Source: Acidobacteria bacterium SCN 69-37
GTDB taxonomy: Bacteria > Acidobacteriota > Vicinamibacteria > Vicinamibacterales > SCN-69-37
DNA length: 64,000 bases
NCBI GenBank assembly: GCA_001724025.1
Contig: MEDJ01000010.1
Span: forward strand, 1 to 64,000
Direction of reading: 5' to 3'
Shown: piece by piece, positions 48,401 to 53,033 of the stretch
How the letters are laid out: each line of letters starts with the position of its first letter
How positions within the stretch are numbered: the stretch's first letter is position 1
Translations under genes and position numbers: made by a program
The notes under the pieces: generated by a model
What the model was told of the DNA's origin: nothing
The model's input: the letters and a program-made list of their open reading frames with translations, nothing else
Databases searched by the model: none

Positions 48401-49618
48401 CTGCTGACGGGCGAAGCCTCGATTACCGACGGCCGGCTGCGGCCGTTCGGATCGCCGCACAGCCTGGAGTCGCTCGACGGACACGTGCGCTTCGCATCGA
48501 ACGCCATTAACCTCGACCAGGTCACGGGCCGGATTGGCAGTGGCGAGGTCACGTTCGGCGGCAGCCTGGCGCTCGACGGGTACCGGCTGACCGAGTACAA
48601 CCTCACGGCCACCGGGCGATCCATGCGGCTGCGGTATCCGACCGGTTTCAATTCCACTGTCGACATGCGACTGTTCTTGACGGGTCCGCGCGATGCGCCG
48701 ATGCTGACCGGGGCGATCGACGTGCTGCGCGTGTCGCTCGTCGGGGCGTCGCAGCCGGGCACGAGCCTGCTCGGCTTCGCCACGTCTTCGACGCCCGCGA
48801 CACCGGGGGCCACGGAGTCCGCGCCGACCGTGTCGACAGGGACGTCCATCGGCCTGGACCTGCGCGTGACGGCCCCGCGCATGCGCGTGATCGACAACAA
48901 CGCCGCGCGGCTGGAAGCATCGGCCGACCTCCAGGTCCGGGGGACGTACGACGTGCCGCTGATCGAGGGCGCCGTCGACATCGCGGGCGGTGAGGTCCTG
49001 TTCAACGGCAACCGCTATTTCGTCCGCGAAGGATCGGTCGACTTCACGCCGGGCCAGCCGGAGCCGGTTTTCGACCTGGCTGCCGAAACGCGTCCGCGCG
49101 TGTCGGGGCAGACGTTCACCGTCAGCGTCGGCATCAGCGGGACGTTCGATCGCATCAGCTTCACCACGTCGTCCGATCCGTGGCTGCCCGAGAGCGACGT
49201 CATCTCGCTGCTGTTCGGCGGCACACCGGCGCTGGGCACGGCCGAGGAACGATCGCTGCGATCGTCGCAGGAACTGCAGCAGCAGATGCTGCAGACAGCC
49301 GGGGCGGCGCTGCTCGCCAGCCCGATCACGTCGCGCGTGGGCGCGGCCGTGGAGCGGACCGGGGCGTTCGACACCGTGCAGATCACCCCGGTACTGAGCA
49401 GCGAAGAGGCGTTCCAGCAGCTCAACCCGACGGCGCGCGTGACATTCGGCAAGCGGATCTCGCCGCGTGTGTTCCTCACGTATTCCCGGACGATTGGCGG
49501 GCTCGAGGAGGAGATCATCCTGCTCGAGTACGACCAGAGCGATCGCGTGTCGTGGGTGTTCTCGCGCAACGAGGACCGGACGTTCGCGCTCGATTTCCGT
49601 ATCCGGTACGTCTTCTGA
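45470..49618 (+). CDS. TamB-like / AsmA-like inner-membrane translocation protein (DUF490)
   Basis: A 1382-residue protein with an N-terminal membrane anchor (about residues 30-56) and a very long repeated beta-groove region, ending in a TamB C-terminal domain: ARLEASADLQVRGTYDVPLIEG, VLFNGNRYFVREGSVDF, then PWLPESDVISLLFGG and the outer-membrane-facing RVFLTYSRTIGGLEE. Bridge-like proteins of this kind move phospholipids or help outer-membrane protein insertion with an Omp85 partner. The partner gene follows, coupled by TGATG. GTG start with only a weak ribosome-binding site. Confidence 0.9.
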   Translation: MSETTPPPPDAPVPTTGPEPSPAPASSKRRVAGRWMRRAFALGVAVMAAVFVSVFSLDLGRIPQLRQQAEHHGSNYLRRPLHIGSISARLVPGVFVLDNVVIEGRAPGDRPFYEVRRILVNLPWWTLIRRELHLNLRLDDWTMVIESWADGTHNIPHLVPDRREPSGPKRFTTTVDYAYAHGGTFIYEDHGTPWSVVAPNLDFDLVRSAALQEYVGTAMFRQGVVQIQDYEPMTADFRTQFKLDGSKVFMRHIDLVADGSRSSITGELDMANWPNQVYDIESTIDFARMKALFFTRETWRLGGQGRFTGRFLLGKDGVRDLTGQFSSDAAIVNDIPFSALRGDLTWVHSHFTVTHAEAHVLGGRMGFGYRIAPLGTPDGTTMRFETDYRDLDLAALGQVMQLRGLQLAGTASGDLAVAWPSGHMAAGRRGVGHTIISPPSGERLAPDLLPQTPLAAAHEPLPFDPQPGTRAIPVGADLHYRFEPGATIFGESRFATTHSFIRFDGRLESSGAARFPFHVTSHDWQESDRLLAAIMTAVSGPTGAVEVGGRGTFDGVMTGSFTSPRIDGRFDGADIRAWDVRWGRASADLAIEGGYIDIVNSRIGDTSDAVIVADGRYALGFRHDDAEEIRAHVQMAGWPVADLRHAFELDDWSFDGVMGDLDLDLSGQYRNMFGRGRMRIDRGRAWGESFETATADLELEGTGLRVSRIDLQKASGRMLGAARIGWDGTYVFNADGDGVPVEALDTFRLETAPLSGRLRFKVSGAGEFDRPQYTFEGSVDDLFVGDEGIGAVSGRITIDDDVMRIERLVAASSRLQGLASGTVVFDDAYTSDLRFRFQETSLDPYLKFVLTDDISPYTRLVVGGSLDVRGPLSSPADLTIDTTIDDATLTLYDYDLRNDGPLRLRLDDGRLAVTAFELQGRDTNLELAGGADVRARTFDLTAAGDASLSILQLFFEGVTSAGAAQLNAKVSGTFDAPLLTGEASITDGRLRPFGSPHSLESLDGHVRFASNAINLDQVTGRIGSGEVTFGGSLALDGYRLTEYNLTATGRSMRLRYPTGFNSTVDMRLFLTGPRDAPMLTGAIDVLRVSLVGASQPGTSLLGFATSSTPATPGATESAPTVSTGTSIGLDLRVTAPRMRVIDNNAARLEASADLQVRGTYDVPLIEGAVDIAGGEVLFNGNRYFVREGSVDFTPGQPEPVFDLAAETRPRVSGQTFTVSVGISGTFDRISFTTSSDPWLPESDVISLLFGGTPALGTAEERSLRSSQELQQQMLQTAGAALLASPITSRVGAAVERTGAFDTVQITPVLSSEEAFQQLNPTARVTFGKRISPRVFLTYSRTIGGLEEEIILLEYDQSDRVSWVFSRNEDRTFALDFRIRYVF

Positions 49619-52533
49619 TGCGGACGACAGCGGGACGGATCGGGGTGGCTCTCGTGTTGTGGCTGACGCTGGCGGCCGCGGCGTTCGCACAGGAGGCGGC
49701 CGGGCCGATCGGCCAGCCCGTCGTGGCGGTCCGATTCGACGTGGAAGGGCGGCCCAACGAGGAGCCGCCACTGATGGGCCTGTCGGCCGTGCGTGTGGGC
49801 GAGCCGCTCCGGAGCGAAGACGTGCGCTCCACGATCGCGCGGATCGACGGGCTCGGCACCTACGACGACGTCTCGGCGTCGGCGGGATTCGTGCCCGGCG
49901 GTGTCGAGGTGGTCTTTCACCTGGTCCCGCGGCGCCCGGTCACGGCGCTCCAGATCGAGGGCACGACGGGCATGCCGGCCGGGACCCTGCGTCGCCAACT
50001 CCAGCAGCGGTATGGCGGCATCCCCGCGACCGCGCGGCCGTCGTCCGTCGAAGCGACGGTCACGCAGATGCTCAATGACGAGGGGTATCTCTCGGCGCGC
50101 GTCACGAGCCGTCTCGAGACGAGCGTCGACGCCGACGCGGCCACGCTCGTGCTGGACGTGACCGCCGGGCCGCAGGCGGTGGTGCGCAGCGTCGAGGTGC
50201 GCGGGCAGTCGCCGCGCTCGCCCGAGAGTCTCATCGCGCAGACGCGTACGGCTGTCGGATCGCCCTACCGCCGGCGCGAGATCGAGACGGCGCTGACGAC
50301 GATCGAGGAAGACCTGCGCAGTCGCGGCTACTACGAGGCCCAGCTGACGCTGCAGGCCACACCGGCCGATGACGGGGTGGACCTCGTGATCGGCGTGAAT
50401 GCCGGACCGCGCGTCGAGGTGCGCGTGCTGCCTGCCGGCGTGCTGCCGGGCAGCCTCGCGGACCTCGTCCCGATCCGGCGGCTCGGGTCGGCCGATCAGG
50501 ATCTGCTCGAGGACTCGCGGGCGCGGATCGAACGTGCGCTGCGCGCGCAGGGCTACTGGAAGGCATCGGCGCCGTTCACCCGCACGCTCGAACAGGACGG
50601 GGCGCTGCTCGTCATCACCTTCCCGATCGCGCGCGGTCCGCGCTATTACGTGGACGACGTCGAGGTCCCGGCGGGCCTGGCCTTGAGCGCCGCGCGGATC
50701 CGCGATTTGATCGGCGTCGCCCGTGGAGACATCTTCGACGAGGACCGGTTCCTGGCCGGCCTGGCGCGCGTGGCCGACGCGTATCGGCGCGCCGGCTATT
50801 ACGCCATGCGGGCCGAGCCCACGTACGAGGAAGTGCCCGGCGGCGATCCGTCGCGCGCTGCTGTCGTGCTGCACCCGACGATTACCGAGGGGCCGGCCGG
50901 GCGGCTGACGGCGGTAACCATCGACAACGGTGAGGCCGCGCAGGTGCCCGACGCGGACATCCGCCAGGTGATGGCGTCACACGTCGGTGAGCCGTACGTG
51001 GAGGAGATAGCGGCCCGCGATCAGATCGCGATCAGGAGCCTGTATCTCGACCGCGGATTTCCAGGGGCAGCGGTGACCATGCGCCCCGTGTTCGGCGAGG
51101 ACGGACGGGCCGTGACGCTCGACGTGCACGTGACCGAGGGCGTGCGCGTCATGATTGCGGACATCTCGGTCGTGGGAAACGAGCGCGTCTCGACACGTGC
51201 GATCCTCGATGAGATGCGCCTGGCGCCGGGACAACCGGCCGGCGCGAGCGCGCTCGAGGAGGCCCGCCGGCGACTCGTCGAGATGGGGGTCTTCCGTCGA
51301 ATCACGATCTCGATGGCCGATCGCGCGGCCGGTGAGACGCAGGGACACCTGATCGTCAACGTTGTGGAGGCGCCGGCCACGACCGTCGGGGTCGGCGGCG
51401 GGCTCGAGGCGGGGCGCTACACCCGCATCAGCCCGGCAGGGCGCAGCGATCGCGTGGAGTTCGCACCGCGCGGATTCTTCGAGATCAGCCGTCGGAATCT
51501 CGGCGGCCGCAACCGCATCGTCAGCTTTTTCTCGCGGGCGGCGTTGAAGCGCAACCAGGGTGCCGTCGATGAGGACGAGCCGGACGATGGCTCGGGGTTC
51601 ACGGAATACCGCGTCACGGGCACGTACCGTGAACGGCGGGCCTTCGGATCGGCCTCCGACCTGCTCCTCGGTTTCACCTCGGAACAGGGCCGGCGCACGA
51701 GCTTCGATTTCGGCCGCCAGCGGGCGAACGCCGAAGCGCTGCGGGTTTTTTCGCCCACGCTCAGCGTGTCGGGCCGGTACGCGCTCGAGTTCAGCCGGTT
51801 GTTCGCCGATCGGATCGAGCCGAGCGACAGGCCGCTCATCGACAGACTGTTCCCCGAAGTCCGTCTCTCGATAGTGGCGAGCGGGGTATCGTGGGATCGT
51901 CGCGACAGCCCGATCGATCCAACGCGCGGCACGCTCGTCACCGGCGATGTCGAACTGGCGGCCCGCGCGATTGGCTCGCAGGTCGGATACGTGAAGAGCT
52001 TCTTCCAGGGATCGGCATTCCGCCGGCTCGACGCCGCCGCCCACACGGTCGTCGCCGGGCGCGTGCTGGTGGGGGGCGCGCGCGGCTTCCTGCGGACCGT
52101 GACGTCGGCCGACGGGGCAACCGAGGAGGTCGTCCAGGACCTGCCGGCCAGCCAGCGCTTCTTCGCGGGCGGCAGCACCACGGTCCGCGGCTTCCAGCTC
52201 GACAGGCTCGGCGTCGACGAGATCATCCGGAACGGCCTGTCGATCGGCGGGAACGGCATCGTGGTGGCGAACGTGGAGATCCGGCGGTTCGTCACGCGTC
52301 TGCTGGGACGTGATTTCGGGCTGGTCGGATTCCTCGATGCCGGCAATGTCTTCCGTCGCGCGGGCGACATCGACCTCGGCCGGCTGCGGACCGCGACGGG
52401 CGTTGGCGTGCGCTACGACTCGCCGCTGGGGCCGCTGCGGCTCGACTTCGGGTTCAAGATCCGACCGCACACGATGCCCGACGGTCGCGAACGTGGCTGG
52501 GAGTATCACCTCAGCATCGGGGAGGCCTTCTGA
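49618..52533 (+). CDS. Omp85-family outer-membrane protein with seven POTRA-like repeats
   Basis: A 971-residue outer-membrane protein: signal peptide 1-24, then seven successive POTRA-like modules at about 34-104, 106-185, 186-264, 265-341, 342-426, 427-508 and 509-586, most ending in a G[PV] turn. The 16-stranded-type barrel follows to residue 971, with the Omp85 motif VRGF at 856-859 and a C-terminal Phe. E. coli TamA has three POTRA domains and BamA five. Direct coupling to the TamB-like gene supports a TamA-like partner; BamA function cannot be excluded. Confidence 0.9.
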   Translation: MRTTAGRIGVALVLWLTLAAAAFAQEAAGPIGQPVVAVRFDVEGRPNEEPPLMGLSAVRVGEPLRSEDVRSTIARIDGLGTYDDVSASAGFVPGGVEVVFHLVPRRPVTALQIEGTTGMPAGTLRRQLQQRYGGIPATARPSSVEATVTQMLNDEGYLSARVTSRLETSVDADAATLVLDVTAGPQAVVRSVEVRGQSPRSPESLIAQTRTAVGSPYRRREIETALTTIEEDLRSRGYYEAQLTLQATPADDGVDLVIGVNAGPRVEVRVLPAGVLPGSLADLVPIRRLGSADQDLLEDSRARIERALRAQGYWKASAPFTRTLEQDGALLVITFPIARGPRYYVDDVEVPAGLALSAARIRDLIGVARGDIFDEDRFLAGLARVADAYRRAGYYAMRAEPTYEEVPGGDPSRAAVVLHPTITEGPAGRLTAVTIDNGEAAQVPDADIRQVMASHVGEPYVEEIAARDQIAIRSLYLDRGFPGAAVTMRPVFGEDGRAVTLDVHVTEGVRVMIADISVVGNERVSTRAILDEMRLAPGQPAGASALEEARRRLVEMGVFRRITISMADRAAGETQGHLIVNVVEAPATTVGVGGGLEAGRYTRISPAGRSDRVEFAPRGFFEISRRNLGGRNRIVSFFSRAALKRNQGAVDEDEPDDGSGFTEYRVTGTYRERRAFGSASDLLLGFTSEQGRRTSFDFGRQRANAEALRVFSPTLSVSGRYALEFSRLFADRIEPSDRPLIDRLFPEVRLSIVASGVSWDRRDSPIDPTRGTLVTGDVELAARAIGSQVGYVKSFFQGSAFRRLDAAAHTVVAGRVLVGGARGFLRTVTSADGATEEVVQDLPASQRFFAGGSTTVRGFQLDRLGVDEIIRNGLSIGGNGIVVANVEIRRFVTRLLGRDFGLVGFLDAGNVFRRAGDIDLGRLRTATGVGVRYDSPLGPLRLDFGFKIRPHTMPDGRERGWEYHLSIGEAF

Positions 52534-53033
52534 TGATCGGACGACTGTTGATCTGCCTTGCGGTTGCCGGCCTGGTGGCCGTCGGGATTCCGGCGACGGC
52601 GCAGGTGGAGCTCGATCGCATCGTGTCGCGCGTGGCGGGCCGCCTGATCACCCTCTCGGACATCCGCCAGGCCCGCACGCTCAGGCTCGTCGACGAGACG
52701 ACGTCGGACGAGGCGACGCAGCGCGCCCTCGAGTCGCGCCTGCTGATCCTGCACGAGCTCTCGCGCGGCTCGGCGGCGCCGCCACCGGATCGCGAGGCCG
52801 TGGCTGCCCGCCGGGCCGAGTGGACGGCCAGCATGGGCAGCGACCAGGCGGTGCCCGCGTTGCTGGCGCAGGGCGGCATGAGTGATGGCGACCTCGACGC
52901 CTGGTTCAGAGACGACGTGCGGATCCGCGCGTACCTGCGCCGGCAGTTCGGGAGGCTCGACGACGCCGAGCGCACCGAGGCGATGCGCGAGTGGCTCGGG
53001 CGGCTTCGGCAGCGGGCCGAACTGCCGCAGTAG
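52533..53033 (+). CDS. SurA N-terminal-like periplasmic protein without PPIase domain
   Basis: A 166-residue exported protein (signal peptide cut near ATAQ-VEL). VELDRIVSRVAGRLITLSDIRQAR is the SurA/PpiD chaperone N-terminus, and the end (YLRRQFGRLDDAERTEAMREWLGRLRQRAEL) matches the returning chaperone helix. The parvulin domain normally between or after them is missing. It is coupled to the Omp85 gene by one shared base, consistent with a chaperone for outer-membrane proteins. Confidence 0.8.
   Translation: MIGRLLICLAVAGLVAVGIPATAQVELDRIVSRVAGRLITLSDIRQARTLRLVDETTSDEATQRALESRLLILHELSRGSAAPPPDREAVAARRAEWTASMGSDQAVPALLAQGGMSDGDLDAWFRDDVRIRAYLRRQFGRLDDAERTEAMREWLGRLRQRAELPQ

Follow-up and report, generated by a model that had tools for sequence, protein, structure and literature searches.

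The window, by which we mean the whole stretch of 64,000 nucleotides that was analysed, contains three overlapping genes on the plus strand, read from the open reading frames as a tamB-like gene, an omp85 gene and a small SurA-like gene in this order (Table 1). Both junctions have the sequence TGATG, the final A of each stop codon being at the same time the first base of the next start codon. The coordinates and the length given for the Omp85 gene in the original prediction were found to be correct, as was its overlap with the 1,382-residue TamB gene, which amounts to a single base. The tamB-like protein matched the Pfam TamB domain at residues 1018–1380 with 133.7 bits against a cut-off of 22.4, and its beginning is AsmA/DUF748-like, with a DUF748 match of 6.6e-12 that is yet under the cut-off of its own family. 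It stayed below the TamB equivalog NF047952 (19.5 against 825 bits). By sequence reading, this protein would have an N-terminal membrane anchor and the 971-residue Omp85 protein a signal-peptide-like N terminus. The terminal residue of the tamB-like protein is Phe.

Table 1. Features of the tamB-omp85-SurA-like locus and of the single-chain paralogue (POTRA, barrel and SurA-core folds are predicted)
Feature	Position	Strand	Evidence
tamB-like gene, 1,382 aa	45470..49618	+	ORF; Pfam
TGATG, tamB stop and Omp85 start codon share one base	49616..49620	+	Sequence read
Omp85 gene, 971 aa, ATG start	49618..52533	+	ORF, Pfam, AlphaFold2, structure alignment
POTRA 1, residues 34–104	49717..49929	+	AlphaFold2; hhalign 95% to BamA POTRA1
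POTRA 2, residues 108–182	49939..50163	+	PF07244, AlphaFold2
POTRA 3, residues 188–261	50179..50400	+	PF07244, hhalign, AlphaFold2, structure alignment
POTRA 4, residues 265–336, divergent	50410..50625	+	hhalign 98.6% to fusion POTRA2; AlphaFold2
POTRA 5, residues 342–423; modelled place of BamA POTRA3 and TamA POTRA1	50641..50886	+	PF07244, AlphaFold2, structure alignment
POTRA 6, residues 429–506	50902..51135	+	PF07244, AlphaFold2
POTRA 7, residues 512–584, adjoins barrel	51151..51369	+	PF07244, hhalign, AlphaFold2
16-strand Omp85 beta-barrel, residues 588–971; VRGF at 856–859	51379..52530	+	Pfam, AlphaFold2, Foldseek
TGATG, Omp85 stop and SurA-like gene start codon overlap	52531..52535	+	Sequence read
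SurA chaperone core gene, 166 aa, N-terminal domain and C-terminal helix	52533..53033	+	AlphaFold2; VIA-align; profile search
Single-chain TamB-Omp85, 2,332 aa	C21:95601-102596 (L006:1602-8597)	+	Pfam, domain search

The arrangement of the three genes is conserved among related loci. A profile scan of genome contigs yielded 404 loci, of which the best 80 were taken as the orthologous family set; almost all of them carry the label Acidobacteria, Vicinamibacteria or Vicinamibacterales. TamB adjoins the start of Omp85 in 78 of these best 80 loci, and in 72 of 73 under a stricter test; of the two loci without a scored TamB, one has its start only 43 nt away from the end of its contig, and the other (L092) was given a start that lies too far upstream, within the tail of TamB. 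The exact one-base overlap between tamB and omp85 was present in 53 of the 78 loci with a readable TamB end when counted against the real TamB stop, and in 55 of the 80 by sequence context alone, the start codons of the loci having been chosen by a script that favours TGATG or TAATG. Of 78 TamB tails from related loci, 77 end in Phe. The last residue of the C-terminal strand of E. coli TamB is aromatic. Furthermore, 68 of the best 80 loci have a relative of the SurA core in the 900 nt that follow, as do 60 of the 67 in which 900 nt of sequence are present there. When 247 Acidobacteriota genomes were searched with P0001 at E up to 1e-60, relatives were obtained in 29, of which 23 belong to its own order. 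Five loci carry other labels, namely Acidimicrobiia (three), Bifidobacterium breve and Cyanobacteria (L056, L075, L079, L088 and L128); these oddly labelled MAGs with Vicinamibacterales-like operons are probably mislabelled, mis-binned or contaminated bins.

Predicted folds of the Omp85 and SurA-like proteins

The Omp85 protein belongs to the Omp85 superfamily, as PF01103 was matched with 127.8 bits against a cut-off of 24 and a 16-strand barrel is predicted after the POTRAs. The VRGF motif, present in this barrel, is a hallmark of Omp85 proteins. The original prediction had counted seven successive modules before the barrel, and named structure prediction as the check; five POTRAs together with a non-POTRA domain would speak against it, an outcome that was not obtained. 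With Pfam, PF07244 marks five POTRA stretches, corresponding to modules 2, 3, 5, 6 and 7, and modules 1 and 4 fall below detection. The AlphaFold2 model was made from an alignment of 79 sequences; of the 80 loci, 78 were used in the family alignment (L060 and L092 were excluded for over-long frames). In this model, which has a mean pLDDT of 89.9, all seven modules show the order strand-helix-helix-strand-strand, and the ten-residue means are at least 85 across all of them. In addition, when the family alignments were split by module and compared profile to profile, every one of the seven found a partner among the other POTRAs at no less than 94%. Module 4 matched module 2 at 97% and the second module of the fusion protein described below at 98.6%, and module 1 matched BamA POTRA1 at 95% and modules 6 and 7 at 94%. 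The modelling and the profiles together support seven POTRA folds, modules 1 and 4 included, as had been counted originally.

The next gene had been described as encoding a short SurA-like chaperone, and its predicted fold and a profile match to SurA agree with that description. The AlphaFold2 model of the 166-residue protein has a pLDDT of 91.9 and aligned by VIA-align with SurA 8pzv_F over 134 residues (Z 11.3, rmsd 3.9), a Z score in the range below about 13 that may be unspecific in helical proteins. Foldseek alone gave weak matches (best E 0.07; 1m5y E 0.08), and the profile search with the small-gene family, aligned from 36 loci and the window gene out of 64 loci listed, reached SurA at E 3e-4. 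The window protein is without any Pfam match; SurA_N was matched by 5 and SurA_N_3 by 8 of the 37 family members. Rotamase_2 (PF13145) was matched by 12 of the 37, the window protein not being among them, and its model contains the core elements only, with no parvulin PPIase domain in the 166 residues. The model thus supports a SurA core fold in a protein too short for the PPIase domain.

A single-chain TamB-POTRA-Omp85 paralogue

Searches of the same genome with Omp85 and TamB domains converged on one open frame of 2,333 residues on contig C21. Pfam placed DUF748 similarity from residue 10, TamB at 1231–1566, POTRAs from 1597 and the Omp85 barrel at 2031–2332 in this chain, giving the order of an AsmA/TamB body, the TamB C-terminal strands, a 17-residue linker, five POTRAs and a barrel. 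The C21 paralogue reads as a putative single-chain TAM that would extend from an inner-membrane anchor to an outer-membrane barrel. A comparison of module number among the Omp85 paralogues of the genome, which the original prediction had proposed, thus sets five POTRAs in the fusion against seven in the window Omp85.

A continuous TamB-POTRA-Omp85 frame was found in 50 of 247 sampled Acidobacteriota genomes, distributed over 25 families, and in 40 of 120 genomes of the order among the matches listed, which at the order level reached down to about E 1e-32, weaker than the fusions counted. The genome counts refer to drawn samples, both of which include the present genome, and G046 and G154 were not counted as fusions because their matches end at POTRA1. 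An assembly artefact was rejected as an explanation of the C21 fusion, since the unbroken frame recurs in the phylum and, among the matches listed, in the order. The distribution is patchy in the window's own family, where no other sampled genome had a fusion among the matches listed. Two fusion genes per genome were noted in G055, G037 and G298 by one tally and in G055, G047, G071, G118 and G037 by the other.

In 23 of the 50 genomes, Pfam detected no TamB besides that of the fusion (PF04357 at E up to 0.001); 20 of these 23 are at least 90% complete and one, G174, is a single-contig genome. The other 27 have a separate TamB beside the fusion, as is the case in the present genome. TamB, POTRA and Omp85 domains were detected by Pfam in all of 37 fusion proteins taken from the 60 loci fetched, and the frame was uninterrupted in every one. 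The fusion alignment covered 49 of the 60 loci, the remaining 11 being duplicates or truncated. The TamB tail strand is kept in the fusions, with F at the terminal column in 37 of the 49, and the linker from the TamB tail to POTRA1 has 14–25 residues (median 17) and is rich in Gly, Ala, Pro and Arg. Such a junction could be a cleavage site, and the single chain might be cut after its synthesis to give a functionally ordinary two-part TAM. We consider this unlikely, as the frame is unbroken in all 37 aligned members with their three domains and the fusion is the only TamB found in nearly half of the genomes having it, although both observations are compatible with cleavage.

The five modules of the fusion (F1–F5) best fitted window modules W3–W7 in the profile-profile comparison, with W3-F1 at 99.5, W4-F2 at 98.6, W6-F4 at 99.7 and W7-F5 at 99.4. 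W5 matched F4 (99.6) better than F3 (98.5), and W2 matched F1 (99.1) and F3 (99.0) about equally well, so that a one-to-one POTRA register is not fixed by sequence. The tamB-omp85 gene order would make such a fusion possible; as the two genes are in different frames, however, losing the TGATG stop would not by itself join them.

Position relative to BamA and TamA

BamA gave the best NCBIfam score of the window Omp85, which at 252.7 bits is under the cut-off of 297.15 of the BamA equivalog TIGR03303. The score for the TamA equivalog NF047950 was 112.3 bits, under the cut-off of 625, and a canonical identity as BamA or TamA was rejected because both cut-offs were missed. TamL was likewise not indicated, with 98.6 against 400 bits for NF052279 and no cysteine for a lipoprotein signal among the first 30 residues. 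The protein shares with TamA the adjoining TamB gene, and the seven POTRAs of the model fit neither the five of BamA nor the three of TamA. A search for another bamA elsewhere, as suggested with the original prediction, led to a protein on contig C8 of the same genome that scored 435.2 bits, over the TIGR03303 cut-off, and is the true BamA. The window Omp85 is therefore an additional Omp85 linked to TamB, which does not take the place of BamA, and the earlier suggestion that the additional modules replace missing partner proteins is weakened.

When the Omp85 model was searched with Foldseek, E. coli BamA structures were the top matches (E 6e-41) and TamA 8us1 was matched with a target TM-score of 0.76. 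VIA-align set model residue 342 on BamA residue 174 (8bnz, Z 27.4, rmsd 6.5) and on the start of TamA (8us1, Z 24.2, rmsd 5.0, 529 residues). Longer-reaching rows paired residue 187 with residue 24 of BamA, at the cost of an rmsd of 12–14. In the model, modules 5–7 hold the places of TamA POTRA1–3 (rmsd 5.0), and modules 3–7 most likely those of BamA POTRA1–5, as judged from the rows with rmsd of 12–14. The membrane-distal modules 1 and 2 would then be additions, because TamA aligns on modules 5–7 and BamA on 3–7. By profile, module 1 resembles BamA POTRA1, yet the structural rows with rmsd of 12–14 set BamA POTRA1 on module 3.

The relation of the barrels was examined in a tree of 60 rows, comprising 13 of the 80 stand-alone loci, 24 fusion loci, 12 of 29 BamA loci, 6 distant relatives, 3 sequences of the genome itself and 2 of E. 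coli. The acidobacterial BamA rows formed one group (98/99), the stand-alone family another (100/99, 14 rows), and the fusions a clade (100/99, 24 rows) from which L192 alone fell outside. The stand-alone family and the fusions came together, apart from acidobacterial BamA, with support of 94/95, just under the star of the tool. The sole TamA row, that of E. coli, fell to the side of BamA with a branch of 3.11, which is very long, and the tree thus does not confirm the link with TamA drawn by Heinz et al.

It may be argued that the adjacency of TamB is an ancestral operon habit and that TamB works mostly with other Omp85 proteins. The best NCBIfam score and the top Foldseek matches, both to BamA, are in line with this, as is the TamB/BamA/Skp gene cluster described for Negativicutes, Halanaerobiales and Spirochaetes (PMC5007114, in excerpt). 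Against it, the window Omp85 misses the BamA cut-off while a canonical BamA exists in the genome, TamB adjoins in nearly all of the best 80 of 404 loci and mostly with the one-base overlap, and the barrel clusters with TamB-fused Omp85s rather than with acidobacterial BamA. An ancestral habit of this kind seems rather unlikely to us, and a dedicated pairing of the two proteins is preferred.

Known systems and the proposed mechanism

A second, TamB-linked BamA of Acidobacteria, in some cases with seven POTRAs, has been described (Heinz et al, 2015; PMC4494059, in excerpt). The window Omp85 has in common with it the phylum, the TamB linkage, a canonical BamA besides, the seven POTRAs and a divergent internal POTRA. 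It differs in gene order, which is BamA-TamB in the Acidobacteria of that study and TamB-Omp85 in the window, and in the place of the divergent module, the third there and the fourth here, where modules 1 and 4 escape Pfam. Heinz et al. also grouped the second BamA with TamA, which the present barrel tree does not show. The terms fusion, fused and SurA are absent from the main text of that paper. As Omp85 proteins have one to seven POTRAs according to a 2026 review (PMC13067283, in excerpt), the count of seven is a known upper case and not new. That only five are true POTRAs, with modules 1 and 4 as spacer segments, was rejected as very improbable: PF07244 matches five stretches only and the divergent internal module was doubtful to Heinz et al. 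as a POTRA (PMC4494059, in excerpt), but the model has the complete POTRA element order in modules 1 and 4 with ten-residue pLDDT means of 87–97, and the profile matches to other POTRAs are 97–99% for module 4 and 94–95% for module 1. For this lineage, the seven-POTRA arm therefore supports a doubtful point of the 2015 paper on TAM evolution.

The locus shares with the proteobacterial TAM an Omp85 barrel with POTRAs adjoining TamB, and barrel and modules 5–7 align with TamA 8us1. It differs from this TAM in having seven POTRAs instead of three, in missing the TamA cut-off (112 against 625 bits) and in the position of tamB, which is upstream of omp85 in the window and downstream of tamA in E. 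coli. The BAM-TAM hybrid of Borrelia has in common a BamA-like Omp85 with TamB and no TamA, but the Omp85 there is the only BamA, with five POTRAs, and that of the window is a second Omp85 with seven (PMC13382580 and PMC11361582, in excerpt). TamB, Omp85 and periplasmic chaperone genes also stand together in the TamB/BamA/Skp cluster, where the chaperone is Skp and not a SurA core (PMC5007114, in excerpt); a SurA core in such a cluster was not found in the excerpts of the literature searched. For the fusion, Omp85-WD40 proteins are a precedent in which a partner-like domain is joined to the Omp85 barrel, a BamB-like propeller there and a whole TamB in the C21 chain (Heinz and Lithgow, 2014; PMC4104836, in excerpt). 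No report of a TamB-Omp85 fusion was found in the excerpts of the open-licence literature searched, in which the occurrences of "fusion" and "fused" that were read, for PMC11361582 a part of them, referred to tags, WD40-Omp85 proteins, autotransporters, OmpM and an efflux protein name.

We consider it probable that the three genes constitute a TAM-like trans-envelope module of Vicinamibacterales, with TamB, its Omp85 partner, a SurA feeder and distal POTRAs that dock TamB. TamB, anchored in the inner membrane, would reach toward the outer membrane, where the Omp85 protein, a TamB-linked relative of BamA and TamA, would be its dedicated partner, and the short SurA core may feed the Omp85 with unfolded outer-membrane proteins. 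For E. coli, a hybrid barrel formed by strand 1 of TamA and the final strand of TamB has been described, with contacts of TamB to POTRA1–3 (PMC12800296, in excerpt). Binding of the TamB DUF490 to BamA POTRAs 2–3 has also been described (PMC11361582, in excerpt). By analogy with the published E. coli TamAB structure, the TamB tail, which ends in Phe, may pair at the lateral gate with strand 1 of the barrel, and the beta-taco body of TamB may dock on the POTRA arm and deliver phospholipid or aid insertion. The contact of TamB with Omp85 and the activity of the window system are accordingly proposed from work on E. coli and Borrelia. POTRAs 1 and 2, the additional distal ones, could be the TamB docking arm, because the covalently joined paralogue has equivalents of POTRAs 3–7 only. 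In the fusion, TamB sits where modules 1 and 2 would be, which would fit a docking role better than mere length.

For the phylum as a whole, we lean towards the view that a single-chain TAM of about 2,000–2,800 residues arose in Acidobacteriota, probably early and on one occasion, as a covalent bridge for phospholipid or outer-membrane proteins, often as the only TamB, and that the window Omp85 is its two-chain sister, in which distal POTRAs would provide docking instead of linkage. TAM may bridge the membranes stably or may dock and release, and a natural covalent TamB-Omp85 chain fixes both its attachment and its stoichiometry. As the tail strand of TamB is only 14–25 residues away from POTRA1 in this chain, the geometry proposed for the hybrid barrel can be put to a direct test, and species with no TamB other than the fused one show whether a cell can do without a detachable TamB.

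Other proteins with Omp85 or POTRA domains were also noted in the genome. A small Omp85-like protein of 472 residues (C1:306746-307243, L004) matched PF01103 with 38.7 bits, and the POTRA search of the genome gave no match at this protein. A 425-residue protein whose start is signal-like (C1:290962-292236; L132:4963-6240, plus strand) has PF07244 and POTRA_2 matches and no barrel, and frames of 475–476 residues related to it were found in 2 of 39 other genomes searched. An Omp85-like barrel (C9:227959-228513; L005:1486-3552, minus strand; 31.5 bits) lies behind what read as TolB/WD40-like propeller repeats, and this protein resembles the Omp85-WD40 proteins that Heinz and Lithgow (2014) described as a class.
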